Assembly (NCBI RefSeq): GCF_014960965.1
Contig: NZ_CP063169.1
Location: forward strand, 3,319,581 to 3,383,580
DNA: 64,000 nt
From: Ruania alkalisoli
Lineage (GTDB): Bacteria; Actinomycetota; Actinomycetes; Actinomycetales; Beutenbergiaceae
Direction of reading: 5' to 3'
The notes below the pieces were generated by a model. The model was not told where the DNA came from. It did no database searches and worked only from the letters and a program-made list of their open reading frames with translations. The position numbers and the translations under genes were made by a program. Of this stretch, positions 2,060 through 20,557 are shown one piece after another. Each line of letters opens with the position of its first letter. Within the stretch, counting starts at the first letter, position 1.

Positions 2060-4324
2060 TCAGGACGAGGTGGGCACGTGCGTGGTCGAGACGCGCACGC
2101 CCCTGCTGCTGTGCAGCCGGGCGAGTACGACAGCTCCGGCATCTGGATCTTCGGTACGCACCCGACGGCGCACGCTCTCGCCCGGGGCGAGTAGCTGGTG
2201 CTGCGTGCCGCCAGGACCGGCGATGCGCAGATCCACGGCAGTCGGCTCGAGGTTCACGGCGTGCACGTCCACGTACCGCCCGCTCGGATCGTCGACGACG
2301 GTGCCGGTCGTGGCCACAGCAACGTCACCGGAGACGGTCGTCATGTCGACGGTGGTCAGCTCCAGCGTGATCGTGCCGGGATGATCGATCCAGCACCGGG
2401 TGACGTTGTGGGTGCCCGCGGGGAAGTACCACTTCGAGGTCGACTCCAACCGCACCGGCAACGACGTTCCCCAGGAGAACAGGAAGCGGTGCGTGCCGCG
2501 GGTCACCGCCATCCAGGTGGCGGTGGTGGAGATCGTGGCCTGACCAGCACTCCAGTGAGTGCCGTCGGAGAGCTCGACCTCATCCTCGGCCAACAGCAGC
2601 AACGGAATGCGTTCTTGAGCAGCACTGCTCGCGGTCACGCTCCGCTCGATGCCGTTCTGGTGGTGGACGACGTCGGTACTGACCATGCCGTCGGCGCTGA
2701 CGGACCGTGCGGTGAAGGTGCCCGTGACGGCGGACAGGTCGCCTGCCGTCAGCGGTGCGCCGCTGGCATCAGGGCCGGCATAGTAGGTGACGGTGGAGTC
2801 CGTCAGAGCGCTGTCCAGATCCGCCCCCTGAGGCCCTGCTCCCGGGATGACGGTGGTCCACCAGGAGTCGAAGTATCCGTTCAAGGAGCAGACGATCGTT
2901 CCTGCCTCAGGATGCCAATAGAGGCCGGTGCCGGTCCGTGCACGCCCCTCGATCTCGCCTTCGACAGCAGCCGTGTAGTAGCCGGGACGGCGCACAAAGA
3001 GCAGGTCCTGGTCGAGCGTGCCTGCCCGATGCTCGGTGAAGGTGCTCTCGGCGAGTGGGCGCATGGCGGCGATCTGGGCGAGCCGGGACGTGCCGGAGAC
3101 GTTCTCCGGCGCCTCGGGGACGTGCATCCACAGCCGTGGCGACGTCTTTCCCTTGGCGAGCGGGGCCACCGGATCGGGGTTGGATGCCCACTGGGTGCGC
3201 TTCTGATGCTTCTTACCCGAACTGACGTGCAGGGCCGCGAGCATGGGCACCTCCGGCACGAACACGCGCGAGAGTGCGGATCGATCATCGGCGTCCTCTG
3301 GAGTGTCGTCCCGTGAGACCCCGAAATTACGGGCAGAAGCGGCGGAGAGGGTAGCGAACGCAGTGGTACCGGGCTCTCGGAGGAGGACGTACTGGGCGAA
3401 GTCCATCCAGTCCTCGACCATCTGTACCAGCGTCGGGTTGCCGGTGATGAGGTACAGATCAGCGAGGTCAGGCAGCATCACGGTGGCGTTGTAGGCCAGG
3501 TCGAAGCCGACCGGATCATGGAAGTACCCGGCGGGCGCTCGGCCTTCGTCGGCGAGTAGCTCGATCCGGTCGTCCAGGTCAGCGGCGATAGCAGTGTCAC
3601 CGAGAACCGCAGCCGTGTGCCCCACTCCTGCCAGGGCCGCCGCGATCTGGTTGGTGTACCGGATCGGCAGTTGCCAGTGGAAGGTCGTGGTGTCGAGCAG
3701 GTAGGCGCACGCGGCGCGCAGCGCAGACTCGATCTCGGGCAACCGCGCGGTCAGCACGCCTTCGCGATCGAGGTCAGCATAGGCACTGGCCAGAGCCACG
3801 GCACCGAACCCGGTGGCCGCCAGGCTGTTGGCCTGGTAGTCGACCGGGAAGGCGCCGTTCGCCCCCTGCAGACCGAGGTAGTAGCCGATCGCGGCATCCA
3901 AGCGTCCGGCCAGATTCGCATCGAGGTAGTACGGGTTCCAGGAGCGGTCGTTGGTCAGGAACCAGGCCAGGGTCGCGACATGCTCCATGATGCGGGAGTT
4001 GTTCTCGACATTCGGCGTGCGCCACCAGCCGTCTTCCATCCACCCGTACGTGGCCGGATCGTCGTCGACCACACTGTTCGCAAGCGGCGCGAGGATCATC
4101 AGATAGCCGGCGAAGACCTGCTCCTCGGGCGCAAAGAGTGAGCGGTCCGGCAGGCCCGCGGGAAGGGGCGCCACCAGTGGCAGCACCGTTCCCGCCGAGG
4201 TGGCATGAGCAGGGCCGGCCGCGATCGGTCCGGAGAGGATCGCCGTTGCGCTGAGCGCACCCACCCCGAGCATGGTCCGGCGGGTCAGGGGCGGCAGCGT
4301 GTGGTGCGGGCTCGTCTCAGTCAT
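2060..4324 (-). CDS. Tat-exported large protein of unknown family, probable polysaccharide-active enzyme
   Basis: The 754-residue protein starts at ATG 4324 (AAGGAG about 12 nt upstream). It has a clear Tat signal: TRRTMLGVGAL, a hydrophobic stretch, then a probable AHA cleavage site near residue 40. The first ~380 mature residues are alpha-helical with repeated aromatic motifs (GWMEDGWWRTPNVENNSR, FHWQLPIRYTNQ), as in an (alpha/alpha) toroid. The rest looks beta-rich (RRPGYYTAAV, GLYWHPEAG), ending in a small sandwich. Heparinase II/III-like and PL8-type lyases share this toroid plus beta-sandwich plan, but I recognise no catalytic signature of either, so the family is unassigned. It sits 144 bp from the divergently placed end of lacI and has the regulon operator 45 bp upstream. 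Extracellular depolymerase or debranching enzyme is an inference. Confidence 0.6.
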   Translation of the reverse strand: MTETSPHHTLPPLTRRTMLGVGALSATAILSGPIAAGPAHATSAGTVLPLVAPLPAGLPDRSLFAPEEQVFAGYLMILAPLANSVVDDDPATYGWMEDGWWRTPNVENNSRIMEHVATLAWFLTNDRSWNPYYLDANLAGRLDAAIGYYLGLQGANGAFPVDYQANSLAATGFGAVALASAYADLDREGVLTARLPEIESALRAACAYLLDTTTFHWQLPIRYTNQIAAALAGVGHTAAVLGDTAIAADLDDRIELLADEGRAPAGYFHDPVGFDLAYNATVMLPDLADLYLITGNPTLVQMVEDWMDFAQYVLLREPGTTAFATLSAASARNFGVSRDDTPEDADDRSALSRVFVPEVPMLAALHVSSGKKHQKRTQWASNPDPVAPLAKGKTSPRLWMHVPEAPENVSGTSRLAQIAAMRPLAESTFTEHRAGTLDQDLLFVRRPGYYTAAVEGEIEGRARTGTGLYWHPEAGTIVCSLNGYFDSWWTTVIPGAGPQGADLDSALTDSTVTYYAGPDASGAPLTAGDLSAVTGTFTARSVSADGMVSTDVVHHQNGIERSVTASSAAQERIPLLLLAEDEVELSDGTHWSAGQATISTTATWMAVTRGTHRFLFSWGTSLPVRLESTSKWYFPAGTHNVTRCWIDHPGTITLELTTVDMTTVSGDVAVATTGTVVDDPSGRYVDVHAVNLEPTAVDLRIAGPGGTQHQLLAPGESVRRRVRTEDPDAGAVVLARLHSSRGVRVSTTHVPTSS

Positions 4325-4368
4325 CGTGCAGTGCTCCTTCTGTGCGTAGGTGCGTCTTTGCTCCTGTG

Positions 4369-4386
4369 AGATGGAACGTTGCATCA
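4369..4386. promoter_or_regulatory. Putative LacI operator, copy 1
   Basis: AGATGGAACGTTGCATCA matches the perfect palindrome at 14413-14430 at 14 of 18 positions, with the right half intact except one base. It lies 45 bp upstream of the start of the Tat-exported protein gene. Confidence 0.6.
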
Positions 4387-4468
4387 TGTGACGGCAGCCT
4401 GTCAAGCGGCAGGTGACCGGCAGGGGCGCCGCAGCGCGCATCAGAGCGCGCGCGTCAAGGTGCGAACG

Positions 4469-5476
4469 TCAGGGCGACGCGGCGGTCGATCCACGCACAA
4501 TCACGCGGGGCGCCGGGTCATCGACCACCTCGTCCACCCGCGCGCCGCCATCGATCATCGCGGCCAGGGCGGACTGCCCGGCATAACCGAGCTCGTAGAA
4601 GGGCATCTTCAGCGTGGTCAGCGCCGGCCGGGTGAAGTCAGCCGCCTCGATATCGTGGTAGCCGATCACGGACAGCTCTTCGGGCACGCGGATGCCCGCA
4701 TCGGCAGCGGCGCCGAGCACACCGGTGGCGGTCGTGGAGTTGGACACGAGCATGGCCGTCGGGCGCTGCGCACCCCCGAGGAGCGACAGCGCCGCTTCGT
4801 AGCCATCCTTCGGCGCGAAACCGACAGGACAGATCCACTCCTCGCGCACATCGTGGCCGGCGTTGGCCAGCGCCTCCCGGAACCCGACACGGCGCTCGTC
4901 GTCGGCGAAGTAGCCGGTGGTGCCGCCGACGAAGGCGATCCGTTCGTGACCCAGGCCAATCAGATAGTCCGTCGCCACACGAGCACCTCGACGGTGGTTG
5001 AGCTGCACGCCGCCGCGGTCCGCGGCAGTCGTCCCGTGGTCGAGCTGGACCACCGAGTACTGGCGCTTCGCGCTCTTCATGTCCACCTCGAACGTGTGCG
5101 GAGATCGGAGCAGCAGTCCGTCCACCCGCCCCTCCCCGACGAGCTTTCGCAGCAGGTTCGACTCAGGCAGGATCCGATTCGCCTCGGTCAGGATGAGCAC
5201 ATACCCAGTCGCCTCGGCGGCGTCCTGAATACCGCGGAGCATCTCGGCGTACACCGGGATCCCGAGCTGTGGAATCACACCCGCGACCAGACCGGACTTG
5301 GCCAACCGCAATGACCGTGCCGCATGATTGGGCACGTACTGCATCTCGTCCACGATCCGCAGCACCCGCTCACGGACGGCGGTGCTGGTGCGCACATGTT
5401 TGCTGCCGTTCAGCACCGCAGAGACCACCGAGACGGAGACACCGGCCCGCTCGGCCACATCGCGCAAGGTGGTCAT
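4469..5476 (-). CDS. LacI family transcriptional regulator of locus 1
   Basis: The 335-residue protein starts MTTLRDVAERAGVSVSVVSA, the classical LacI N-terminal helix-turn-helix, followed by the hinge helix motif (HAARSLRLAKSG). The periplasmic-binding-protein-like effector domain runs to the end and includes GATDY-type and SVIGYHD segments. It should bind DNA as a dimer and release it on binding a sugar. The ATG at 5476 fits the family's length; an in-frame GTG lies 15 nt earlier in the sequence upstream. Neither has a convincing ribosome-binding site, so the start may be leaderless. It is divergent from the permease operon. Its predicted targets are the three matching palindromes at 4369, 5648 and 14413. 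A weak half-site (GATGCA, 5530-5535) lies in its own upstream region. Confidence 0.9.
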   Translation of the reverse strand: MTTLRDVAERAGVSVSVVSAVLNGSKHVRTSTAVRERVLRIVDEMQYVPNHAARSLRLAKSGLVAGVIPQLGIPVYAEMLRGIQDAAEATGYVLILTEANRILPESNLLRKLVGEGRVDGLLLRSPHTFEVDMKSAKRQYSVVQLDHGTTAADRGGVQLNHRRGARVATDYLIGLGHERIAFVGGTTGYFADDERRVGFREALANAGHDVREEWICPVGFAPKDGYEAALSLLGGAQRPTAMLVSNSTTATGVLGAAADAGIRVPEELSVIGYHDIEAADFTRPALTTLKMPFYELGYAGQSALAAMIDGGARVDEVVDDPAPRVIVRGSTAASP

Positions 5477-5647
5477 GAGAGGGGATGCTAACACCCGGCC
5501 GGTTTCGTCATCTCCGCAGGTGAGGGCACGATGCAACCTTCAATCTCGCGACGACGCGAGCGACATTCAACCACCGGTCCAGGCGACCCGAGGGTCGGTC
5601 GGCCTTGACGAGCGCACCATTGCGGACTAACGTCCCGGAACAGCAAT

Positions 5648-5665
5648 AGATGCATCGTTACATCA
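5648..5665. promoter_or_regulatory. Putative LacI operator, copy 2
   Basis: AGATGCATCGTTACATCA matches the perfect palindrome at 14413-14430 at 15 of 18 positions. It is 58 bp upstream of the first permease gene, in the divergent region between that gene and lacI. Confidence 0.65.
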
Positions 5666-5723
5666 GACGGATCTTCCGCCCACGATCAGGTACGGCCCAA
5701 GGAAGGGTCGAAAGGAGCGCGGC

Positions 5724-6761
5724 ATGGCAGTAACCACCGGAGGTCGAGGTGCACGCTCGCCCCGGCCCGAGGTGAGCGGATCGCCCGACGACGCACCGCC
5801 GTCAGGAGGCGCGACGAACACGAGCCGCTCCCCCGCACCGAACCGGAAGACGAACTGGTGGGCACGGCTCAAACGGGACAAGTTCCTGCTCCTGCTCGCC
5901 GTTCCCGGAGTCTTCCTGGTGCTGCTGTTCCAGTACGTCCCGCTGATCGGCAACATCATCGCGTTCAAGGACTACCAGCCCTACCTGAGCATCTGGGAAT
6001 CGCCGTGGGTGGGCCTGGAGAACTTCGACATCATCTTCACTGGCGACCCGGCATTCATCAACGCCCTGATCAACACGCTGGTGATCTCCTTCGTGCAGAT
6101 CGTGCTGGTCTTCCCCATCCCGATCGCGCTCGCACTGCTCCTCAACTCGCTGCTGAGCGAGAAGATCAAGCGGACCGTGCAATCCATCCTGTACCTGCCG
6201 CACTTCATGTCCTGGGTGATCGTGGTCGCGATCTTCCAGCACATGCTGGGCGATGCCGGGCTCTACAACACCTGGGCCCGCGAGCACAACATCTTCGAGA
6301 TCAACCTCATCGGCGAACCGGAGCTCTTCATCACGCTCATCACGTCACAGGTGATCTGGAAGGACGCCGGCTGGGGAACGATCATCTTCCTCGCGGCGAT
6401 CTCCCGGGTGAGTATCGAGCTCTACGAGGCTGTGGCCATCGACGGCGGCGGTCGGATGCGACAGCTGTGGCACGTCACCCTCCCGGCGATCCGCGGCGTG
6501 ATCATCCTGCTGCTCATCCTCAAGCTCGGCGACGTGCTCACGGTCGGCTTCGAGCAGATCTACCTGCAACAGGCGCCTGTGGGTCGTGAAGCCTCAGAAG
6601 TGCTCGACACCTACGTCTACAACTACGGCGTCATCGGCGGGAACTGGGGCGCCTCGGCCGCCGTCGGGCTGGTCAAGGGTCTCGTGGGCGCACTGCTCGT
6701 GCTCGGCGCGAACAAGATCGCGCACCTGTTCGGTGAAAGAGGGGTGTACTCCAAGTGGTGA
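5724..6761 (+). CDS. Sugar ABC transporter permease, LplB/YteP type
   Basis: The 345-residue inner-membrane permease has six predicted membrane segments after a ~50-residue Pro/Ser-rich cytoplasmic leader. The phrase LFQYVPLIGNIIAFKDYQPY is typical of the LplB/YteP/AraP branch of the MalF-like family. The EAA loop contacting the ATPase is ELYEAVAIDGGGRMRQLWHV. These permeases import oligosaccharides, often uronate-containing products of lyases. The start ATG has AAAGGAG 7 nt upstream. It overlaps the next permease gene, with which it forms a heterodimer. Its binding protein is probably the Tat-lipoprotein at 12615-14264, the matching LplA/YtcQ type. No ATPase gene is nearby. Confidence 0.92.
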   Translation: MAVTTGGRGARSPRPEVSGSPDDAPPSGGATNTSRSPAPNRKTNWWARLKRDKFLLLLAVPGVFLVLLFQYVPLIGNIIAFKDYQPYLSIWESPWVGLENFDIIFTGDPAFINALINTLVISFVQIVLVFPIPIALALLLNSLLSEKIKRTVQSILYLPHFMSWVIVVAIFQHMLGDAGLYNTWAREHNIFEINLIGEPELFITLITSQVIWKDAGWGTIIFLAAISRVSIELYEAVAIDGGGRMRQLWHVTLPAIRGVIILLLILKLGDVLTVGFEQIYLQQAPVGREASEVLDTYVYNYGVIGGNWGASAAVGLVKGLVGALLVLGANKIAHLFGERGVYSKW

Positions 6762-7693
6762 CCGACGCAACAACGAAACGCCCCTCTCGTGGGCCGAGTG
6801 ACCGTGCGGGACAGCTGCGGCTGATCAACGGCGCGAAACCACCGAACCCCCTGGTGCGCGGGTTCAAGGGCGTCATTCTGCTCGCCTGCTGCGCCCTGGT
6901 GGTCGTACCGTTCTGGTCGGTGATCGCCACCTCCCTGGCCGATCCGTCGCAGGTGCTGGCCGAAGGTGGCTACGTGATGTGGCCCAAGGAGCCGACGCTC
7001 GCCGCCTACGAGGCAATCTTCCGCGGCGGTGTGGTCACGCGAGCCACCTTGGTCTCGATCTTCGTGACCCTGGTGGGATCAGGCCTGTCCGTGACCGTCG
7101 TGGCGCTACTGGCGTACTCGCTCTCCCGGCCTGGAACCTTCGGCAGCAGCAAGATCCTGCTGCTGGTGCTGTTCACCATGCTCTTCAACGCCGGCATGAT
7201 CCCGAACTACCTGCTCATCAAGGAACTCGGGCTGATCGACTCCTACTGGGCGCTGATCCTGCCCACGCTCACGAACGCGTTCCAGATCATCCTGATGCGC
7301 GGCTTCTTCCTCGAGGTACCGGGCGAGATCATCGACGCCGCTCGCATCGACGGTGCCGGTGAGCTGCGGATCCTCACCACCATCATGCTGCCGCTGTCGA
7401 AGGCTGTCGTCGCGGTGATCGCGCTGTTCAACGCGGTGACGTACTGGAACGCGTTCTTCAACGCGGTGCTCTACATCAATTCGACGGAGAAATGGCCGCT
7501 GCAGCTGGTACTGAGAACCTACGTCGTGGACGGCACTGCCGTTCAGGCCGACGTCTCCGGCGAGATGGTGCCGCCGCAGCTCTCGCTCCAGATGGCGATC
7601 CTCGTGGTCTCGCTGGTACCGATCTGCCTCGTCTACCCCTTCCTGCAGAAGCACTTCGCCCAGGGCGTGGTGATCGGTGCCGTCAAGGGCTGA
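6755..7693 (+). CDS. Sugar ABC transporter permease, YtcP/LplC type
   Basis: The 312-residue MalG-like permease has six predicted membrane segments. The EAA loop is EIIDAARIDGAGELRILTTI, and the C-terminus ends QKHFAQGVVIGAVKG, as usual for YtcP/LplC proteins. Translation starts at the GTG at 6755 or at the adjacent GTG at 6758; both overlap the stop of the upstream permease, so the two are translationally coupled. With the LplB-type partner it forms the membrane channel for import of the glycan fragments handled by this locus. A short GC-rich hairpin follows the stop codon immediately. Confidence 0.92.
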   Translation: MVTDATTKRPSRGPSDRAGQLRLINGAKPPNPLVRGFKGVILLACCALVVVPFWSVIATSLADPSQVLAEGGYVMWPKEPTLAAYEAIFRGGVVTRATLVSIFVTLVGSGLSVTVVALLAYSLSRPGTFGSSKILLLVLFTMLFNAGMIPNYLLIKELGLIDSYWALILPTLTNAFQIILMRGFFLEVPGEIIDAARIDGAGELRILTTIMLPLSKAVVAVIALFNAVTYWNAFFNAVLYINSTEKWPLQLVLRTYVVDGTAVQADVSGEMVPPQLSLQMAILVVSLVPICLVYPFLQKHFAQGVVIGAVKG

Positions 7694-7708
7694 GGCCCGG
7701 CGCGGGCC
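7694..7708 (+). terminator. Short GC hairpin after the permease operon
   Basis: GGCCCG-gcg-CGGGCC starts at the base after the permease stop codon. It has a 6-bp stem and no U tract, so a termination role is only likely. Confidence 0.35.
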
Positions 7709-7743
7709 CTCACACCGCCCCGCCTCCCGAGGCTCCTCCCTGT

Positions 7744-7815
7744 CGAATCCCCTTTCCGCCGTCGAATCCCCTCTCCACCCTCCGGTGAGTGGTTCCGTGG
7801 CGGGAAGGGGATTCG
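7744..7815. repeat. Palindromic repeat element, copy A
   Basis: The left arm CGAATCCCCTTTCCGCC (7744-7760) and right arm GGCGGGAAGGGGATTCG (7799-7815) are inverted repeats matching at 16 of 17 positions. A second partial left arm (CGAATCCCC) begins at 7763. The element lies between the permease operon and the AbiEi-like gene. It shares its core with copies B and C. Confidence 0.8.
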
Positions 7816-7847
7816 GCGTGTCCGCACCGCCGTCCACAGGGCTCACC

Positions 7848-8873
7848 ATGATGCACCCACGTCCACAACCCGAGCGCGCACGCCAGTGGGAGCAGCGCCA
7901 TCAGTGCTCTGCTCAAGCGATGACACACGCCTGGAACCTCGGCAAGGACCTCATCACCTACGCTGCCGCCGCAGAGCTCGGGTTGGAGAAGCCGCTGCTG
8001 CGCGCACACCGGGACGGGCGAGTGGAGCGGGTGTCGCGAGGCGTCTACGTCCCACGCAGCGCCACGGCCCGGGGTTCGGCCGGCCAGCAGCGCGCCGCCG
8101 ACTACCTCCGGCTCGTGCTGGCCGCCGCGCGACGGCTGCACTCGCCCGTGTTCACGAGCTGGTCTGCGGTCGCGCTGCTCGGGCTACCGATCGTGGGGCG
8201 CTGGCCGCAGGACATCTACGTGCTGTCACGGACCGCGCACGGCAAGCGGCGGCGTGGTCTGGTGAGCGTAGCCCGACGATCCGACGCCCCTGTGACGACG
8301 ACGTGTGGCCTCGAGCTCACTGACGTAGAGTTCACGCTGATCCAGCTCGCCCGCCACGCTCCGCTCGTGAGCGCACTCGTGGCGGCGAACGCCGCATGCC
8401 TGACCCGCCAGGGCGACGACGGCCTGACCACACCGGCCCGACTATGGGCCGAGCACGAGCGGCTCCTCCCCTACCGCAGCCACCGCCGCGTGCAGGCGGT
8501 GCTCGACCGAGTCCGGGACAACGCGGAGTCCCCGCTGGAGACGCTCAGCGACCTCACCATCGACGAGCTGGGCTTCGCGGCCCCACGCCACCAGGTCCGC
8601 TTCAGCGTGTCGACCGGCTCGGCGTATCTGGACTTCTACTGGGAGGAAGCCGGTATCGGTGGCGAGGCCGACGGTGACACGAAGTACCTGATGCCGGGCT
8701 CCGATGCCGGGGCCACGGTGCTCGAGGAGAAGCACCGCGAGGACGAGCTGCGAGCGCAGCTGCATGGTCTGGTGCGGTGGAACTGGCGGGAGGCATGGCT
8801 ACGGACCCCGCTGGAGGCGAAACTCGAGCGAGCGGGAGTTCCCCGCCCGCGCCTGCCTCGCCAACTCCGGTAG
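7848..8873 (+). CDS. AbiEi/DUF559-like protein, putative DNA-binding nuclease
   Basis: The 341-residue protein looks like the widespread actinobacterial family annotated as AbiEi antitoxin-domain or DUF559-like. The N-terminal ~60 residues (LGKDLITYAAAAELGLEKPLLRAHRDGRV, given here as fragments LGKDLITYAA and LLRAHRDGRV, then SRGVYVPRS) form the winged-helix part typical of AbiEi. The C-terminal third carries LDFYWEEAGIGGEADGD then TKYL, a pattern compatible with a PD-(D/E)XK/VSR-fold nuclease core. I see no AbiEii-like toxin next to it, so a toxin-antitoxin pair is not supported. The start is uncertain: ATG 7848 is chosen, with 7851 and 7920 as alternatives and no strong ribosome-binding site. 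It interrupts the sugar locus and is bracketed by repeat copies A and B, which suggests separate acquisition. Confidence 0.65.
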   Translation: MMHPRPQPERARQWEQRHQCSAQAMTHAWNLGKDLITYAAAAELGLEKPLLRAHRDGRVERVSRGVYVPRSATARGSAGQQRAADYLRLVLAAARRLHSPVFTSWSAVALLGLPIVGRWPQDIYVLSRTAHGKRRRGLVSVARRSDAPVTTTCGLELTDVEFTLIQLARHAPLVSALVAANAACLTRQGDDGLTTPARLWAEHERLLPYRSHRRVQAVLDRVRDNAESPLETLSDLTIDELGFAAPRHQVRFSVSTGSAYLDFYWEEAGIGGEADGDTKYLMPGSDAGATVLEEKHREDELRAQLHGLVRWNWREAWLRTPLEAKLERAGVPRPRLPRQLR

Positions 8874-8901
8874 CGCCCGTGACAACAGCACTGAGCGCGC
8901 G

Positions 8902-8971
8902 GAATCCCCTTCCCGCCATCGAACCACGCTGCGGAGGGCGGCAACCTGGTTCGATGGCGGAAAGGGGATTC
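8902..8971. repeat. Palindromic repeat element, copy B
   Basis: The 25-bp arms at 8902-8926 and 8947-8971 are inverted repeats matching at 24 of 25 positions, with a 20-nt loop. The core arm is GAATCCCCTTYCCGCCATCG. It lies 28 bp after the AbiEi-like stop and between convergent genes, so it could also act as a two-way terminator. Confidence 0.85.
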
Positions 8972-9026
8972 GGTGGCAGGGAGCGGCCGGGAAGAGGGCC
9001 GGCGAGAGGGAAAGGTGCGGGGGCGA

Positions 9027-12000
9027 TCAGACCTGCTGGACGACCAGCTCGGGGCGCTCGACCTCTTCCTCCTCCGGCATCGACTCCTTGCTCCGCAGGC
9101 TTACGCGCAGCCCATCACCGATCGCCGGGTCCTGCCGGACGACCACCGCGAACGCACTCGTGCCGGCGGTCAGCGCATCATTGACCGCCGCGGTCACGTC
9201 CACCTCGATCCATCCGTAGGACGAGGTCACCGTCGCGGTCCCGAGCAGCGATCCGAGAGCCGGTCTACTTGCCCAGGTCACGGTCGCTTCGTCCCAGGTG
9301 GCCGGGATCTCGTGCATATCGAGGTCGATCTGGCTGCCGCCCGGGTCATCGACCTTGCCGTAGATCCGCACCGTGGCTGACGCCGCGGCGGCGGTGACGT
9401 CTGTGAGCGGGAAGCGGAGCATGGCCTCCCGCACATCATCGGCAGCGGTCGAGGCCATCACGATCATCGAGGCGATGCCACCGTAGTTCGCGGAGCTGTA
9501 AGCCCCGCCACGGACGGTCGTGTCCCCGTCGGTTTCCGCTACCACGGGTGGGTTCGGATCGAGCACGGTGACGGCGTCCCTCGCCCACACCTGCCAGCGA
9601 TCTGTCGTACGCACCACCGCCGCGACGAACGCCGTTCCAGGAGCCACAGGCGTCACCTGCCCGTTGGCGTCCACGGTCAGCACTGCGGTGTCGGTGCTGT
9701 GATAAGTCACGGTGGCTCCGGAGAGGTCGGCCGCAGCGCCGTCCGTCATCCTGCCCGAGACCGACACCTGCGCCGACCCGGTCAGCTCGATCTCGGCGAG
9801 GTCCGCCGTCACTTCGACCGCCGCCAGCCGTGTGGTGATCGCAGTGGAATCCGGCCAGGCACCGCTCGACGTGAGCACTCGCGCCTCGGTCACGCTCATC
9901 CAGTCGTTGGAGCTGTTCCCGAACCCGACGATGCGCACGTAGCGCGCGGTGGTCGGCGTGAAGGTGTGGTCTTCCAGTGCCAGCGTGGTGCCCGAGCTCT
10001 GCGCGGCGAGCACGTTCGTCCAGGTCTGCGCGTCCGAAGAGACCTCCACCTCGAAGGTGAAGACCCGCTCGTCCCCGCGCGACCAGGCGATCGAGACGCC
10101 GTCCACGCTCTGGTCCGAGCCCAGGTCGAGTCGCAGCCACTGCCCGTCGCCCTTCGCAGACCAGAACGTCGCGTCCCAGCCGTCGATGGCGAACTCGGCA
10201 GGGTTGGTGCCGATGATGCTCCCGAGCACGGGAACCTGGGGCGGGTGCGCGAGCCGCACGTGATAGCGGGTGGTCGCCGAGCCGGGGCGCGAGGCTTCCA
10301 CCACGGCCGTTCCGGGCAGCGCCGAGGCAGACGTGAGGCTCACCTGGGTGTGACCGGTAGCCCCGGTGGCGCTCACCTGCGGGACTGTGGTGACGCCGTC
10401 GGGAATCTCCACCTCGTAGGTGTACACCTCGGGATCGAAGCCTCCGACGCTGACGCCGTCCACGGTGAGCGTGGCCAGCGCCGCCGGCGGGTCGGGCTCG
10501 ACCGCCCACTGCGAGATGGGGGTGACGACTGGAGCGGCCGGAGCACTCTCCCAGTCGCGCAACGGGGTGAGCAGCACCGCCAGAGTGCCGGAGGTGGCGG
10601 CGTCGACCTCCACGCCGAGCTTGATGGTGCCGAGGTTGCGGTCCTGGTTCCACGGATCGGGCGAGTCCCACGCGGGCCGGGCGTCCATCACCCAGAACCG
10701 GGCACCGGAGGAAGGGCTCAGGATGCGCGCCTCCACCCGCCCTTGGCCGAGGTGGCTGAGCACGGCGCTCTGCCCGTCCGGCGCCACGTCCACCCTGGCT
10801 CGCGTGTGCAGGTACCACCAGGCTTCGGTGGCACTGCTCGCGGTGTACTCATCCTGCACGAGCACCTGACGGCGGCCGCTCAGCAGCCGGATACCGCGCA
10901 GCCAGGACGTCACGCCCCGGTCCGTCGCGGCGGCGGAGAGGTCGGCCACCAGGAGTGCTTCCGTGGGCGCCGCCTCCACGCGGGTCACGCTGCCCGTGGC
11001 GGAAACCACCTGCTCCTCCGCCGGCCCGGAACCGAACACCACCGTGTTCTGGCCCTCCGTACGCTTGCGGTAGTAGTTCCAGCGGGCGCCACCGGGGCCG
11101 TCCTCCCAGTACCTGCCGACGTCATAGGCCTCCGCGCCCAGCTCGAGCGCCCACCGCCGCCCGAGCGCATCGAGCACGAAGGCGCCCATGTCCAGGTCAC
11201 GGTGCCCGGCGTCCGGGGTGCCGCCCTTGACGGCGGTGAACACGGCTGCCGGATCCTGCCAGGCACTGCGCGTGGTCGCCACGAGCCCGCCGAAGTCCCG
11301 CTCGCGAGCCAGACCGAGCGTCGTCGGGGACTGCGCGGCACCGGGCTGGTACCAGAGCAGGTGGTAGGCGCTGAGGTTCTCCCGCGCCCCCTCCTCTCCC
11401 CACCAGGCGAAGACATCCTCGGAGTAGCGCTCGGCGAGCCAGTGCATGGCGTGTGGGGAGCGCGCGTCGTCCACGGCGTCGTAGAAGTTGAACCCAAGAC
11501 CAGTTGGCCCGGTGAGATAGAGCGGGAAGTAGCCGGTCTCCGACAGCCCGGGTGAACTGGACAGACCTTCGTCGCTACCGACGGCGGTCACCAGACCGGC
11601 CAAGTACGGTGTCAGGCTGCGGATGGCGTACTCCCAGTACATGACACCCTCGAGGTAGCCGCCGTCGGCGTCGATGGCGGCCAGTCCGTTCGGGAGGGAC
11701 GCAAGGGTCTCCTCCAGTAGCGCTTGGCACTGCGGGACCACCTCGTCGCCGATGGCCAGGCAGGCCATGCCGATGCCCGAGTTGCAGACCAAGTTCCAGT
11801 TGGAGAGGGACTCGTGCCAGGCACCCGGCGTGGCGTACTGGGTCTCGGCCTCGTCGAACCCGAGCGTGACCATCGCCGTACGCAGCATCGTACGCTGGGG
11901 GGCGGTGTAGTAGTCGTAGCCCCAGTCGTACCCGATGGCGAAGGCGTGCAGCAGCTCGGCCGTGGCTAGAAAGTTGCCGGGTTCCCAGCCGGGGAATCCC

Positions 12001-12449
12001 GCGGCGGCTTCGAGCTCTTCCCACATCCGCTGCGCGTAGGAGGCATCCTCGTCGATGAGGAAGAGAAGGCCGAGGGTGCGGACCCGGTCGAGTACCGTCC
12101 GGGCCACGGGCAGCAGGGAACGGCCGTCTTGCTGCTCGTGGACACTCACCGCCTCGGTGCAGATCTGGTCCGCATCGGCGCGTAGGCGGCTGCACCAGTC
12201 CTGGGCGATGGGGTCAGTCGTGACCAGACTCTGCAGCGGGGCGATATCTGCCTGGTGGAGCAGCAGACGGGGGTGGGCCGGGTGCAGATCCCCGGTCAAG
12301 GAGATGCTGCCGACGGTGCGTGGCGCCGGGCCCGGCCGCGGGCCGCCAGCAGCCTGTGCGGCGGCGGCGACTGCCTGACCGAAGGCGGCGACCGCGGAGG
12401 CTCCCGCGATGAAGCCGCGGCGGCCGATGGTAAGCGTGTCGTGTGTCAT
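9027..12449 (-). CDS. Tat-exported modular heparinase II/III-like polysaccharide lyase
   Basis: The 1140-residue protein is predicted to cleave uronate-containing polysaccharide outside the cell. A Tat signal (GRRGFIAGASAVAAFG) precedes an alpha/alpha toroid (about 50-370) with YDWGYDYYTAPQR and SNWNLVCNSG. A beta-sandwich with the heparinase II/III-like phrase DAGHRDLDMGAFVLDALG follows. A cadherin-like segment leads to a CBM32/F5-8C-like module (about 737-867: AIDGWDATFWSAKGDGQWL), a bacterial Ig-like module (868-965) and a DNRLRE/CBM96-like module (966-1140: ATWDEATVTWASRP). The Tyr/His/Asn candidates for catalysis are in the toroid, but I cannot assign a PL family. ATG 12449 has AGAGG upstream. 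It follows the binding-protein gene on the same strand, separated by a hairpin and repeat copy C. Confidence 0.82.
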   Translation of the reverse strand: MTHDTLTIGRRGFIAGASAVAAFGQAVAAAAQAAGGPRPGPAPRTVGSISLTGDLHPAHPRLLLHQADIAPLQSLVTTDPIAQDWCSRLRADADQICTEAVSVHEQQDGRSLLPVARTVLDRVRTLGLLFLIDEDASYAQRMWEELEAAAGFPGWEPGNFLATAELLHAFAIGYDWGYDYYTAPQRTMLRTAMVTLGFDEAETQYATPGAWHESLSNWNLVCNSGIGMACLAIGDEVVPQCQALLEETLASLPNGLAAIDADGGYLEGVMYWEYAIRSLTPYLAGLVTAVGSDEGLSSSPGLSETGYFPLYLTGPTGLGFNFYDAVDDARSPHAMHWLAERYSEDVFAWWGEEGARENLSAYHLLWYQPGAAQSPTTLGLARERDFGGLVATTRSAWQDPAAVFTAVKGGTPDAGHRDLDMGAFVLDALGRRWALELGAEAYDVGRYWEDGPGGARWNYYRKRTEGQNTVVFGSGPAEEQVVSATGSVTRVEAAPTEALLVADLSAAATDRGVTSWLRGIRLLSGRRQVLVQDEYTASSATEAWWYLHTRARVDVAPDGQSAVLSHLGQGRVEARILSPSSGARFWVMDARPAWDSPDPWNQDRNLGTIKLGVEVDAATSGTLAVLLTPLRDWESAPAAPVVTPISQWAVEPDPPAALATLTVDGVSVGGFDPEVYTYEVEIPDGVTTVPQVSATGATGHTQVSLTSASALPGTAVVEASRPGSATTRYHVRLAHPPQVPVLGSIIGTNPAEFAIDGWDATFWSAKGDGQWLRLDLGSDQSVDGVSIAWSRGDERVFTFEVEVSSDAQTWTNVLAAQSSGTTLALEDHTFTPTTARYVRIVGFGNSSNDWMSVTEARVLTSSGAWPDSTAITTRLAAVEVTADLAEIELTGSAQVSVSGRMTDGAAADLSGATVTYHSTDTAVLTVDANGQVTPVAPGTAFVAAVVRTTDRWQVWARDAVTVLDPNPPVVAETDGDTTVRGGAYSSANYGGIASMIVMASTAADDVREAMLRFPLTDVTAAAASATVRIYGKVDDPGGSQIDLDMHEIPATWDEATVTWASRPALGSLLGTATVTSSYGWIEVDVTAAVNDALTAGTSAFAVVVRQDPAIGDGLRVSLRSKESMPEEEEVERPELVVQQV

Positions 12450-12477
12450 GTCAGACCTCTCTGTCTGGGAGCACGCG

Positions 12478-12552
12478 CATCGAATCCCCTTTCTCCGCCG
12501 AACCGCGGTGGGGAGGGGCGCGGGGGATTCGGCGGCGAAAGGGGATTCGATG
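12478..12552. repeat. Palindromic repeat element, copy C
   Basis: The outer arms CATCGAATCCCCTTTC (12478-12493) and 12537-12552 pair perfectly over 16 bp. The inner arms CCGCCGAA (12495-12502) and TTCGGCGG (12528-12535) pair perfectly over 8 bp, with a single bulged base on each side between them. It ends 28 bp upstream of the heparinase-like start codon, so it would sit in that gene's leader RNA. Confidence 0.85.
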
Positions 12553-12560
12553 GTTCGGTC

Positions 12561-12594
12561 GGCGCCGGGTGGGAGTGCTCCCCCACCCGGCGCC
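12561..12594 (-). terminator. Strong hairpin after the binding-protein gene
   Basis: GGCGCCGGGTGGG (12561-12573) pairs perfectly with 12582-12594 around an 8-nt loop. It lies 20 nt past the binding-protein stop codon. It probably stops most transcripts, so the downstream lyase gene would be expressed at a lower level or from read-through. Confidence 0.6.
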
Positions 12595-12614
12595 TCGGGC
12601 CTACACCAGCCGAC

Positions 12615-14264
12615 TCAGCCGTTCGCCTCGGCGAAGGCAGCCTCGTACTCGGCGCGGATGTCGTCGCCGCCTGCCTCACGCCAGGAGGCCACCTCGGCAT
12701 CCCACTCATCCAGCGAGCGACGCCCGGCGATGACGTCGATCTGGAAATCGCGCAACGCACCGTTGATGGTCTTCCCATCCGTCGCGTCCAGGTTGGAGAA
12801 CAGCCCCACGGTCGGATCGGGGATGACATTCGGGATGACCGTGGACTGGTAGTCGTGCTGGGACCGGGTGGCGGCCTCGTTGCCAGGTGCGTACACGACG
12901 CCGTCGGAGTCGGCGAGGTACTTCACCGGCAGCACCGTCTCCACACTGCCCTGGTCGGTGAGGATCGGGTCGCTACCGTCCAGTTCGTGGTGCACCCCGC
13001 CCTCACCGAAGTGACGGAACAGGTACTCCGCGGTTCCGAACGGGGTGGCCAGGTAATCGGCGATCGCGAGCAGCTCCTCGATCCGACCGGCGTCGGCCTG
13101 CTTGAACGAGAGCATCCCAGTGGTGACCGAACCGGCAGTGTGACCGCCGGGACCGCCGTCGTAGCCTGGCATCGCCAGACCCATCGGCTCGTAGCCCGGC
13201 ACGTCGGCACCCCAGTCGTAGAACTTGTTCCAGCCCGCGGCACCGGCGCGGTTCAGGCTGATGGTGCCGGCCGTGAACCAGTCGTTGCGCTGGTTGTTGT
13301 TGGCGCTGAGGGAGTCCGGGTGGAAGACGCCCGCCTCCCACATCTCGGTGACGTCGGCGAGGACCTGCTTGTACTCCTCGGTCTCCATCACGTGAGTGAA
13401 AGAGCCGCCGTCCTCCATCCAGGTGGCGGGCAGGTGGAGCATCTCCTTGACCGCCTGCAGACCGGCGCCGGGGTCAGCCATCGCCCACCGGTTCTCGCTG
13501 GCGTTGGACAACTCGCCGACGAGCTCGCGGAACTCGTCGTAGTCGGCCGGCTGCTCCGGCAGGCTCATGTCCTGCAGGATGTCGCGACGTGCGAAGAGCA
13601 CGGTGCCCACCAGTGGCCGGGCGATCGGGATACCGAACAGCCGGCCCCCGAAGACGCACGCCTTCCAGCTGACCGTGGGCAGTGCGGCGAGGCCGCTGTA
13701 CCGCTCCACGGCCGAGCCGCCGAGGTACTCGCTCAGGTCCTGGAACTGTGCGGCGAGCAAGTCAGGCAGATTCGGCTGCGGGGTGCGCACGACCGTCATG
13801 TCCGGGACGTCACCACCGGCGATAGTGGTGGCGAACTTGTTCGGGTAATCCCCACCGGGTGAGTAGGTGAGGTCGAGCTCGACTCCGAGCCTCTCGTTCA
13901 GGGTCTGCCAGTAGGCGTTCTGCCCGAGGCCCGGCGCGGCCGCGTCCCAGGTGAAGGTGAGCGCCGAGACTGTCCCACCCTTTCCGGGCGCCTCGCTGTG
14001 CACCTGGACCGGGTCGGCCGGGTAGCTCAGGAACCCCGCCTGTACGCCTGCCTCGGATCCGGGCAGGTCGGGCTCGACGAAGGAGCTCGCGACGAAATTC
14101 GGGATGACGTCGCTCGGAGCGCTCCCGGCCGACGGATCGGGCGCACCGGTTTCCTCGCCGGAGGACGAACCTCCGCATGCTGCCAGCGTTCCGGTGGTGC
14201 CGAGAAGTGCGGCACCACCGAAACCTTGAAGAATCCGACGCCTACTGATCGCGGTTCCACTCAT
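12615..14264 (-). CDS. Tat-exported lipoprotein, LplA/YtcQ-type sugar-binding protein
   Basis: The 549-residue extracellular solute-binding protein has SRRRILQGFG (Tat motif) and a lipobox LAAC with the lipidated Cys at residue 30. The length (over 500 residues) and features such as DILQDMSLPEQPADYDEF and GYEPMGLAMPGYDGG fit the LplA/YtcQ class that partners with LplB/YtcP permeases. It should capture the oligosaccharides released by the exported lyases of the locus. ATG 14264 has GGAGG 8 nt upstream; the longer frame reaching 14453 is rejected because it would cross the operator. The transporter permeases are 7 kb away on the other strand but carry the same operator. Confidence 0.9.
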   Translation of the reverse strand: MSGTAISRRRILQGFGGAALLGTTGTLAACGGSSSGEETGAPDPSAGSAPSDVIPNFVASSFVEPDLPGSEAGVQAGFLSYPADPVQVHSEAPGKGGTVSALTFTWDAAAPGLGQNAYWQTLNERLGVELDLTYSPGGDYPNKFATTIAGGDVPDMTVVRTPQPNLPDLLAAQFQDLSEYLGGSAVERYSGLAALPTVSWKACVFGGRLFGIPIARPLVGTVLFARRDILQDMSLPEQPADYDEFRELVGELSNASENRWAMADPGAGLQAVKEMLHLPATWMEDGGSFTHVMETEEYKQVLADVTEMWEAGVFHPDSLSANNNQRNDWFTAGTISLNRAGAAGWNKFYDWGADVPGYEPMGLAMPGYDGGPGGHTAGSVTTGMLSFKQADAGRIEELLAIADYLATPFGTAEYLFRHFGEGGVHHELDGSDPILTDQGSVETVLPVKYLADSDGVVYAPGNEAATRSQHDYQSTVIPNVIPDPTVGLFSNLDATDGKTINGALRDFQIDVIAGRRSLDEWDAEVASWREAGGDDIRAEYEAAFAEANG

Positions 14265-14412
14265 GACCAACCTCCAGCTCTGTGGCTTCGCTGCGCTCTG
14301 GTGCACGGTCGCGGACGGGGGTTCCGCTCTCGTGCGGGTAAGGGATGGGTTGTGCTGCCGAGCGGCGGGCGATGCGACCAGCCACACAGTGCCACATCGA
14401 ACCGTCACTCTG

Positions 14413-14430
14413 TGATGCATCGATGCATCA
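14413..14430. promoter_or_regulatory. Putative LacI operator, copy 3 (perfect 18-bp palindrome)
   Basis: TGATGCATCGATGCATCA is a perfect palindrome. It lies 149 bp upstream of the binding-protein gene and 69 bp upstream of the divergent acyltransferase-fusion gene, so it can control both. It defines the consensus for copies 1 and 2. Confidence 0.75.
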
Positions 14431-14498
14431 ACGTGTAGCGTGACTCTAGCCACAGCGACAAGACATCGTCAAGGCCGACTCGAGGAGCCACCCACCCG

Positions 14499-16157
14499 AT
14501 GAGTGACCACACCACCGGACTGATCGACGCTGAACCCGATTTCAACACCTGGGCGTTCTGGTCCACGGCGAGTGCGGAGCAGCAGCAGGCGCAACGTGCA
14601 CGCCTGCACGCCCTCGCCGACGGCGGAGCTCACCTCGGCGAGAACTGCGTGGTCTCCGAGTGGGCCGCCTGCTATGCCGACTCGCTCACGCTCGGTGATC
14701 GCTCGTACCTGGCGGCCTTCAGCTACGTGACCGGAGATATCGAGATCGGGGCCAACTCGACCGTCAACGCCTACGCCGTCGTCCGCGGGACGATCCGGAT
14801 CGGTGACGGCGTGCGGATCGGCGCCCACACGGCACTGCTGGGCTTCGACCACACCTTCGCCCCCGAGCGCCCCGTGCACGAGCAGCCGGTAACGAGCGCG
14901 GGCATCACCATCGGCAACGACGTCTATATCGGCTCCCACGTCAGCGTCGTCGACGGCGTCACGATCGGAGCGCACAGCGTCATCGGCGCTGGATCCGTCG
15001 TCACCAAGGACGTCCCGGAGTGGTCGATCGTCGTCGGCAACCCGGCCCGGCGCATCCGTGACCGCCGTGACAGCCGTGACAGCGACGGTTGGTCCAGCCC
15101 ATCGAGAGCCCTCGCCCAGCTCGCCGAGCGGGCCCGCGAGGAAGCGTCAGCACTTCTCGCCCGCTGCTGGGACGAGACCACCAGGACCTTCTCGGACACC
15201 CCGGGGGCCGATCCCACAGTCCGGGCGCTGTGTGACGCCGTCGAACTGGCCGACCTTCTTGGCCTCGGTGTTCCCGAGCAGCTCGAGCGGGAGGAGATCG
15301 TCGAGACGCTGACACGCTCCCAGGATCCGGCCACTGGCCTGATCCCGCAGCTGCGCAGCACGATCGCGCAAGCCGCGATGGAACCGACCGCGGCAGATCT
15401 GGGCGGCGGACCGATCCGGTACCACCTGCTGTGCGCCGGATACGCGCTCGACCTGCTCGGAGCGCGGTTCACCCATCCGATCCGCGTGGTGGATGAGCTG
15501 CGCGGGGACGCGATGATCGCCGCGGTCGAGCAGCAGCCATGGTCCGAGCGCGCCTGGGGCGCAGGCGACTGGGTCGACTCGGTCGGCACCGCCCTGCTGT
15601 GGAACCGCGACTGGTTCGGCCGTACCGGACCGCTGGAGACACTGATCGGCTGGCTGCACCTGAACGTCGACCGGCACTCGGGCATGTGGGGCTCACCGCG
15701 ACCCAGCGACGGGCTGCGGCAACCGGTGAACGGCTTCTACCGCCTCACCCGCGGCACATTCGCACAGTTCGGTCTGCCACTGCCACAGCCGGAGCGCGCG
15801 ATCGACACCGTCCTCGCCCATGCCCGGGACGACCGCCGGTTCGCACCCGCTCGCGCCACTGCGTGCGACGTCCTCGATATCGCCCACCCGCTGTGGCTCG
15901 CCGGCCACCAGACGAACCACCGTCGCAGTGAGGTTCGCGCCTGGGCGGCCGCGCAGGTACCGCGACTGGCCGAGGCGTGGCACCCTGGCGCTGGGTTCGG
16001 CTTCGCACAACGCGCCGATGCGCGCGGCGATGCCACCCCGAGCCTGCAGGGCACCGAGATGTGGCTCGCGATCGCCTGGTACCTGGCCGATCTGCTCGGC
16101 GAGTCCGGAGCCCTGCGCTACGAGCCGCGCGGGGTGCACCGACCCTGGGCGCGCTGA
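14499..16157 (+). CDS. Hexapeptide-repeat acyltransferase fused to a helical (toroid-like) domain
   Basis: The 552-residue protein has two parts. Residues about 40-190 form a left-handed beta-helix acyltransferase (IEIGANSTVNAYAVVRGTIR and the C-terminal VIGAGSVVTKDVPEWSIVVG with a His before the helix turn: GFDHTF). Residues about 205-552 are helical with aromatic motifs (GGGPIRYHLLCAGYALDLLG, WGAGDWVDSVGTALLW, HSGMWGSPRPSDG), resembling an incomplete alpha/alpha toroid of unknown class. There is no signal peptide. GAGGAG lies 12 nt upstream of ATG 14499. It is divergent from the sugar-binding protein and shares its operator. It may add or remove acyl groups on imported sugars, but the direction and substrate are unknown. 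The single frame is uninterrupted, so the fusion is real in this sequence. Confidence 0.75.
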   Translation: MSDHTTGLIDAEPDFNTWAFWSTASAEQQQAQRARLHALADGGAHLGENCVVSEWAACYADSLTLGDRSYLAAFSYVTGDIEIGANSTVNAYAVVRGTIRIGDGVRIGAHTALLGFDHTFAPERPVHEQPVTSAGITIGNDVYIGSHVSVVDGVTIGAHSVIGAGSVVTKDVPEWSIVVGNPARRIRDRRDSRDSDGWSSPSRALAQLAERAREEASALLARCWDETTRTFSDTPGADPTVRALCDAVELADLLGLGVPEQLEREEIVETLTRSQDPATGLIPQLRSTIAQAAMEPTAADLGGGPIRYHLLCAGYALDLLGARFTHPIRVVDELRGDAMIAAVEQQPWSERAWGAGDWVDSVGTALLWNRDWFGRTGPLETLIGWLHLNVDRHSGMWGSPRPSDGLRQPVNGFYRLTRGTFAQFGLPLPQPERAIDTVLAHARDDRRFAPARATACDVLDIAHPLWLAGHQTNHRRSEVRAWAAAQVPRLAEAWHPGAGFGFAQRADARGDATPSLQGTEMWLAIAWYLADLLGESGALRYEPRGVHRPWAR

Positions 16158-16225: not shown

Positions 16226-17380
16226 TCAGGGGAGCTGCAGGGCCGGCACCGTGCCGGTGCGAGCCTGGGCGTACCACTGCGCGAACACCTCACCATCGGG
16301 TGTCAGATCCGCCCGGGCCGTAGCAGCCGGTACCGCGACCACCGACCGCTCGGTGCCTGAGGGGCTGGCCTGCACGGCGCGCAGATCCTCCACCATGGCC
16401 GCCAGCTCCCAGCCGATCGGCTTGACCGCGCCATCGGCGTCGAACAGGCCAAGGGAGTACTCCAGCTCGGGGAAGTCCGGCATCGCGCGCGTGACGTCGT
16501 GGCTGCACCACCAGGTCACCGCTTCCAGGCCAGGAGCCCCGGCGGCCAGTTCCAGTGTCCGCCGCAGGAAGTCGGGCGCATAGCGGGAGGGCACATGCGA
16601 GATCGGGGCGCCCACTTCCTGCAGCCAGACGGGTCTGCCGGGGCCCGAGTGCGCCGCAGCCAGCTCAAGCAGGTAGCGCGCGAAGTACGGCAGTGCCTGC
16701 TCCACCTCGTTCTCGTAGCGGTCCCAGTTCTTACCGAACACCCACGAGTGCACCGTGGTCATCGCCCCGTGGCGCACGGCGTGCGCGGGCCCGAAGGGGT
16801 GGGAGTCGACGAACCACAGGTCGTCGTCGAAGCTGTGCGAGTGCCGCCCGTGCGGCCATGCGACCTCCGCCGCCCCGATCAGCTCGGCCAGCCAGCCGTG
16901 CACCTGGTCCGAACGCACCACGTGCCGATCCGGGTGGCGCGGAGCGGCGAACTGGGAGAACTCATTGCCCAGCCCGATCCCACGAGCACCGGGAAGATCC
17001 TTGACGGCGCCTGCGAGCGCCGTCACCAGCGCCACCTGGCCGGAGCGCACGTCGGGATCGGTGAACAGGTTCCGGCGGTGCCAGCTCGTCACCCAGGCCG
17101 GTAGATAGTCGAAGCTGGACAGGTGCCCGTTCAGGGCGTCCACCCACACGTCCAGTCCGCGCTCGCCCGCCGCACTCACGACGGCGGCCACGTCGGCGAG
17201 CGCCTCAGCCCTGATGACAGCACGGTCCGGCTGCAGGATGGGCCAGACGGGGAAGATGCGTACGTGATCCAGGCCCAGCCCCGCGATCGCGTCCAGGTCG
17301 CGACGCACCTCGTCGAGGTCCACGGAGTACCAGGAGTGGAACCACCCGCGCCGTGGCGTGTAGTTGACGCCGACCTTCAT
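16226..17380 (-). CDS. GH5-like TIM-barrel glycoside hydrolase
   Basis: The 384-residue protein has no signal peptide and begins directly with MKVGVNYTPRRGWFHSW, as in cytosolic GH5/GH-A clan enzymes. The two catalytic glutamates can be picked out: E140 in GIGLGNEFSQF (acid/base, with the preceding Asn of clan GH-A) and E255 in VWLQEVGAP (nucleophile). The HSFDDDLWFVDSHPFG segment follows strand 5. The clan retains anomeric configuration, and beta-mannosidase or beta-mannanase activity would fit the alpha-mannosidases beside it, but specificity is not readable. The gene overlaps the end of the GH38 gene by 4 bp and is translationally coupled to it. The alternative is GH113 or another clan A family. 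Confidence 0.78.
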   Translation of the reverse strand: MKVGVNYTPRRGWFHSWYSVDLDEVRRDLDAIAGLGLDHVRIFPVWPILQPDRAVIRAEALADVAAVVSAAGERGLDVWVDALNGHLSSFDYLPAWVTSWHRRNLFTDPDVRSGQVALVTALAGAVKDLPGARGIGLGNEFSQFAAPRHPDRHVVRSDQVHGWLAELIGAAEVAWPHGRHSHSFDDDLWFVDSHPFGPAHAVRHGAMTTVHSWVFGKNWDRYENEVEQALPYFARYLLELAAAHSGPGRPVWLQEVGAPISHVPSRYAPDFLRRTLELAAGAPGLEAVTWWCSHDVTRAMPDFPELEYSLGLFDADGAVKPIGWELAAMVEDLRAVQASPSGTERSVVAVPAATARADLTPDGEVFAQWYAQARTGTVPALQLP

Positions 17381-20448: not shown

Positions 20449-20502
20449 CGGCATCCTCCTGCTTCCTTGTACGTCACATCCTAGATTTCCGTGGACCACT
20501 GT

Positions 20503-20518
20503 ACTAAAGCGGTTCAGT
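20503..20518. promoter_or_regulatory. Putative LacI-2 operator, divergent promoter
   Basis: ACTAAAGCGGTTCAGT is an imperfect palindrome (12 of 16 positions symmetric, counted as 6 of 8 per half). Its reverse complement matches the site at 28062-28077 at 14 of 16 positions. It lies between GH38 and lacI-2. Confidence 0.65.
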
Positions 20519-20557
20519 CACTTGCTCCGCCGCCGCGGTCACGACACACTGACGCCC

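Follow-up and report, generated by a model that had tools for sequence, protein, structure and literature searches.

The DNA analysed here (the window) is a stretch of 64,000 nucleotides, C1:3319581–3383580, of the complete 4,448,695-base genome of a Ruania close to R. rhizosphaerae. It contains a cluster for acidic-polysaccharide breakdown and import that is very probably controlled by one sugar-responsive repressor. The candidate repressor gene, lacI (4469–5476, reverse strand), encodes a protein matching the Pfam families LacI (5.6e-14) and Peripla_BP_3 (1.3e-35), with the recognition helix VSVSVVSAVLNG; PF00356, PF13377, and PF00532 all scored above their cut-offs, covering a helix-turn-helix and a sugar-binding domain. 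Also on the reverse strand are the genes for a protein exported by the twin-arginine translocation (Tat) pathway (2060–4324), a protein of the polysaccharide pyruvyl transferase family PF04230 (709–2022; Pfam 4.2e-10; GTG start at 2022), the solute-binding lipoprotein of an ATP-binding cassette (ABC) importer (12615–14264; SBP_bac_8, 1.3e-11; Met start), and a PL35-like polysaccharide lyase (9027–12449). The forward strand carries the importer permeases A (5724–6761; BPD_transp_1, 1.1e-12) and B (6755–7693; BPD_transp_1, 4.8e-08) and a hexapeptide-repeat acyltransferase fused to an (alpha/alpha) toroid domain (14499–16157; Hexapep, 2.4e-18).

Three 18-bp palindromic sites, listed without a strand, lie ahead of these genes. 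Operator 1 (14413–14430, TGATGCATCGATGCATCA) is a perfect palindrome (self-complementarity, 9/9) in the promoter region from which the binding-protein and acyltransferase genes diverge, operator 2 (5648–5665, AGATGCATCGTTACATCA) is upstream of the first permease gene, and operator 3 (4369–4386, AGATGGAACGTTGCATCA) is between the lacI stop and the Tat start. An earlier note on this DNA had described the three sites, their matches to TGATGCATCGATGCATCA (15/18 for operator 2 and 14/18 for operator 3), and their location upstream of different transcription units, and all of this was confirmed: the start codons are 45–149 bp from the operator edges (Tat protein, 45 bp; permease A, 59 bp; acyltransferase, 69 bp; binding protein, 149 bp). 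Against the symmetric consensus WGATGCAWCGWTGCATCW, which was derived from the three sites themselves, operators 1, 2, and 3 have 0, 1, and 1 mismatches, respectively. No other site with up to three mismatches occurs in the window, and 100 shuffles of the window gave a mean of 0.08 sites and at most one, in a comparison that is partly circular because the consensus was written after the sites had been seen. When the perfect palindrome alone was used at up to three mismatches, two sites were found in the window, with 0.03 expected.

The strong operators share a central CG (3/3). A weaker candidate at 5529–5546 (no strand), which the earlier account did not include, is located 53 bp upstream of lacI and has a central CC, four mismatches, and a self-complementarity of 5/9. 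This degenerate site falls in a conserved island, its counterpart upstream of lacI in the related genome G015 has two mismatches, and it may serve autoregulation. In the divergent promoter, a promoter-like element, TTGACG-18-TAGAGT (14443–14472, reverse strand; a consensus match only), reads towards the binding-protein gene, and operator 1 lies directly downstream of its −10 element; the promoter scan near operator 1 found one element, against a shuffle mean of 0.0. Operator 2 begins 15 bp past a second such element, TTGACG-17-TAACGT (5605–5633, forward strand), which was read by eye and scored too low for the promoter scan to report (none found in 4300–5760). The operators just after these promoter-like elements are thus placed where a repressor would sit.

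A scan of the whole genome with WGATGCAWCGWTGCATCW found 14 sites with up to three mismatches, compared with three for the backwards pattern. Nine of the 14 are scattered sites with three mismatches, as would be expected if the palindromes were chance matches or copies of a dispersed repeat with no role in regulation. We give this explanation almost no credence, considering the rarity of the closer matches, their promoter position, the family-wide linkage described below, and the absence of any backwards control match (up to two mismatches) from the genus. A chance origin was rejected on the basis of the window shuffles, the genus distribution, and this linkage. The earlier note had held that a motif both frequent and detached from promoters would speak against a regulon; we found five sites with up to two mismatches in 4.45 Mb, three of which are in the promoters of this cluster. 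At up to one mismatch, four sites remain, namely, the three in the cluster and one at C1:926460. The latter (L059:9461, TGATGTATCGTTGCATCA) lies upstream of ThuA-like and Gfo/Idh-like genes (names read from the sequence), and it may be a further regulon member. Another site, at 510466 (two mismatches), was rejected as a member, as it adjoins an enolase-superfamily-like gene (read from the sequence) and has no match to the cluster importer beside it.

Within the genus, sites with up to two mismatches from WGATGCAWCGWTGCATCW were found in three of eight genomes, and these are the same three that carry this LacI cluster (five sites in the window genome and four each in G015 and G019; backwards control, 0 in 8/8). 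All four sites of G015 are inside the cluster, one of them upstream of lacI, as are three of the four in G019, where the fourth is the counterpart of C1:926460 with one base changed. A wider TGAYG pattern added sites in G018 (one) and G021 (two). Operators 1 and 3 are identical in G015 and G019; operator 2 is unchanged in G015 and has one base changed in G019.

The recognition helix of the local LacI, VSVSVVSA, has Ala at what we take to be the Arg22 position of E. coli LacI, and it alone among the 59 LacI-family proteins of the genome shows this residue there. Among 20 related LacI loci, the helix was readable in 19, with Ala at this position in 16 and Arg in three. A site (up to three mismatches) was present within 1.5 kb of nine of the 16 Ala-type genes and of none of the three Arg-type genes, and for the Ala-type LacI of four Occultella genomes and G021 the site is farther off, at the head of the row. 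The local LacI is not the only one in the window, as the earlier note had supposed, since a second LacI-family gene is located at 20429–21580. This protein was rejected as the regulator: its helix, VSPGAVSFALN, differs, and its gene has no such site next to it in the window. The different helix means that the earlier choice of LacI 4469–5476 was probably right. The second gene adjoins a large alpha-mannosidase-like gene (17377–20499; name read from the sequence), suggesting that another sugar locus borders the cluster.

In four genomes of another genus (g7), three of which are Occultella glacieicola, O. aeris, and O. gossypii, the genes for the Tat protein, the PF04230 protein, permease A, permease B, the binding protein, and LacI follow one another in that order on the same strand, with gaps of 40–195 bp between the matched stretches (L142). 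An operator, TGATGCAACCTTGCATCC, and a second copy, GATGGCAACGTTGCATCA, precede the first gene. The units that are split in the window therefore form one row there, behind an operator. In Pseudactinotalea terrae (G014) and in G001, lacI, the PF04230 gene, both permease genes, the binding-protein gene, and the lyase gene also stand in one row; the operators beside the LacI–PF04230–permease row are of the form TGACG...CGTCA, and the same form occurs in each genome upstream of a Tat gene that is unlinked or transcribed separately. The presence of the altered operator at separate promoters indicates that the regulator and its operator changed together.

To extend this comparison, 24 genomes of the family were scanned with TGAYGYAWCGWTRCRTCA at up to two mismatches, and sites were counted as adjoining when they were within 500 bp of a gene, with 150 bp inside the gene allowed. 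The scan identified 66 sites in 16 of the 24 genomes (backwards control: seven sites). Of these, 39 adjoin a gene of the Tat family (35 genes), the PF04230 clade (20 genes), or the LacI subfamily (31 genes), where about 0.07 would be expected by length; by number of mismatches, the adjoining sites were 4 of 9 at zero, 19 of 23 at one, and 16 of 34 at two. Of the remaining sites, three correspond to operator 1 here and in the two related clusters, and two are upstream of PL35-like lyase genes in Occultella; 22 of the 66 are accounted for by none of these gene groups.

Several observations weigh against a regulon of this scope. By the time the pattern TGAYGYAWCGWTRCRTCA was written, 23 of the 66 sites had already been seen, by hand count, and the genomes are related to one another; among the other 43 sites, 23 adjoin genes of these groups, several of them representing one locus in related Occultella genomes. 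An upstream site was found for only 15 of the 35 Tat-family, seven of the 20 PF04230, and five of the 31 LacI-subfamily genes, although many of the genes without sites are operon-internal or distant paralogues. For two Ala-type LacI genes in G012, the surrounding 1.5 kb contain no site, and G020 has neither this LacI nor a site, despite carrying Tat (70% identity) and PF04230 (75% identity) genes. The second PF04230 gene of the window genome (C1:1058416–1059645, L223) also has no operator. That the operators are conserved in G019 carries no information, since that genome is nearly identical throughout the region, and their conservation in R. rhizosphaerae, whose Tat protein is 93% identical to that of the window, was dropped as evidence, entire intergenic stretches being 93–96% identical.

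The palindromes might also be the operators of a different LacI (e.g., C1:929204 or 921933), in which case the local LacI would control sites elsewhere. With 59 LacI-family genes in the genome, another member could bind the palindromes. The C1:926460 site, which is within one mismatch and is kept in G019, lies between two other LacI genes, and the motif may therefore serve more than LacI 4469–5476. However, KTVSN, the recognition helix of both of these other LacI proteins, differs from that of LacI 4469–5476; TGATG sites occur in the eight genus genomes only where a LacI of the 4469–5476 type occurs; and in other genera, the sites accompany the row containing the orthologous lacI. We therefore consider control by another LacI improbable and retain LacI 4469–5476 as the regulator.

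A further point against the full regulon is that neither of the closest relatives, G015 and G019, has the lyase at this position. The regulon may accordingly consist of the binding protein, the permeases, the Tat protein, and the PF04230 protein only, with the acyltransferase and the lyase as bystanders, a serious possibility to which we give somewhat less weight than to its opposite. The earlier note had treated the binding protein and the lyase as one transcription unit. The two genes are separated by 165 bp containing a repetitive extragenic palindromic (REP)-like palindrome. In the relatives' loci (L015 and L139), the lyase is absent in G019 with breakpoints at REP-like copies, and in G015, approximately 130 bp matching the 3′ end of the lyase gene remain beside the binding-protein gene; elsewhere in these genomes, G015 has three lyase matches and G019 none. 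On the other hand, lyase homologues adjoin the importer in G014 and G001 and lie behind the motif in Occultella. The inclusion of the acyltransferase, also part of the earlier claim, is weakly supported, with the shared divergent promoter as its sole basis: operator 1 lies 69 bp upstream of this gene, which is divergent from it, in all three Ruania clusters, whereas no site was found near its homologues in 17 of 17 other loci scanned outside these clusters. The second domain of the acyltransferase–toroid protein recurs across the order (38 of 297 genomes), in most cases outside the regulon. The model of this toroid domain (mean predicted local distance difference test score [pLDDT], 89.0) gave only weak toroid matches in a structure search, to prenyltransferase beta subunits (E 2.3e-4) and MmpH (7qsj, E 0.023).

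The sites are rare, are positioned at promoters, and are linked to the LacI subfamily and the same gene families across genomes. The sequence comparisons make it highly probable that LacI 4469–5476 acts on the palindromes of the lyase, importer, and Tat–PF04230 units as a local LacI-family regulon. The earlier claim of a regulon spanning these units is thus upheld by the genome scan, the phylogenetic profile, the Occultella row, and the operator drift in two other genera. We infer that LacI 4469–5476 binds the sites, that it represses rather than activates, that an inducer relieves it, and that the substrate is a uronic-acid polysaccharide. In the proposed mechanism, the protein would bind the CG-centred 18-bp palindromes just downstream of the core promoters and block transcription of the binding-protein gene (with the lyase gene behind it), the permease genes, and the Tat and PF04230 genes, and more weakly of its own gene. 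The Tat-exported lyase-like protein and the PL35-like lyase would release an oligosaccharide outside the cell, which the binding protein would capture and the two permeases would import. This oligosaccharide, or a product derived from it, may then bind LacI and lift the repression.

Such an arrangement resembles the local LacI regulons surveyed by Ravcheev et al. (2014; PMC4052901), for which that survey describes even, CG-centred palindromes mostly 30–140 bp upstream of the start, regulator genes that are among their own targets, and targets for sugar import and degradation. The operator position, the palindrome type, and the possible autoregulation of the cluster fit this description. The regulon is of the kind covered in that survey, and its enzyme set is unusual and uncharacterised: unlike the targets described there, those of the window include a PF04230 protein and a lyase-fold Tat family. 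Among the papers searched, we found no match to the operator letters and none on PF04230 in polysaccharide utilization, and of the Ruania and Occultella papers listed (12 of 124), none has a title or abstract opening that describes this regulon.

The Tat-exported protein had no family match in the Pfam and NCBIfam searches. Its model (mean pLDDT, 86.9) predicts a two-domain fold, an (alpha/alpha) toroid and a beta-sandwich, as in the polysaccharide lyases of PL8, PL15, and PL17, which were the best Foldseek matches; the top match was a hyaluronate lyase (1lxk, E 2.2e-12, template modelling [TM] score 0.48, 9% identity), and the listed PL8, PL15, and PL17 lyases as a whole gave TM scores of 0.34–0.51 at approximately 8–13% identity. 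On the basis of this resemblance, the protein is probably a polysaccharide lyase. The Tat family has invariant N, H, and Y residues.

The PF04230 protein scored 40.4 bits against a Pfam cut-off of 25.3, and 22.2 against a cut-off of 213.1 with the CsaB equivalog model; no signal peptide was seen. It appears to keep three of the four residues of the phosphoenolpyruvate (PEP) site of the ketal-pyruvyl transferases CsaB and WcaK, as described in PMC10435577, those at the CsaB positions Arg148, His308, and Lys328 (weak WcaK alignment; hhalign probability, 31.9%). In all 13 clade members aligned, the CsaB Arg306 position holds Asp or Glu, a count that depends on the same weak alignment. A further difference from CsaB and WcaK is that the gene is grouped with those of an importer and lyases rather than with ones for making capsule or wall. 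The other PF04230 gene of this genome (L223) belongs to the same clade and lies beside other permease genes. The earlier description of these proteins as sugar-modifying enzymes was not supported, because the predicted Tat fold is lyase-like and the PF04230 protein appears to lack one PEP-site arginine. Considering its apparent co-regulation with lyases and an importer, and the Asp/Glu at the Arg306 position, we speculate that the Ruaniaceae PF04230 clade was recruited to breakdown, acting in the cytoplasm on an imported uronate or pyruvylated oligosaccharide, where it would, for example, remove or move a group rather than decorate a polymer at the cell surface, and that the Tat protein founds a new lyase family; we regard this combined proposal as rather unlikely as it stands. 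One operator would tie two uncharacterised families, the lyase-fold Tat proteins and the variant PF04230 proteins, to the uptake of acidic polysaccharides, from which testable functions follow. The paired TGATG and TGACG operators, with their regulators, form a small natural series for studying changes in LacI DNA specificity.

The catalytic part of the PL35-like lyase matched 8khv (phmmer 2.5e-61, residues 53–649), 8khw (7.4e-55), and the PL35 chondroitinase 9o3q (8.8e-53). As in the PL35 glycosaminoglycan lyases GAGase II and VII described in PMC12088678, an Asn-Tyr-His set is aligned: Asn192, Tyr246, and His401 of GAGase II correspond to N217, Y271, and H416, the candidate catalytic residues of the window lyase (the chain-to-paper residue offset of GAGase II, worked out in this analysis, is 22). 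The window lyase differs from these enzymes in having Ser at the Asn191 position and Asp at the His403 position, and in carrying additional F5/8C (CBM32-like) and CBM96 domains. The REP-like palindrome, GAATCCCCTTTC...GAAAGGGGATTC, is present in three copies (7744–7816, 8902–8973, and 12475–12553), which flank the lyase gene and an AbiEi-antitoxin-like gene (7677–8873). The latter lies between the permease genes and the lyase gene and is found in the same place in G015 and G019.

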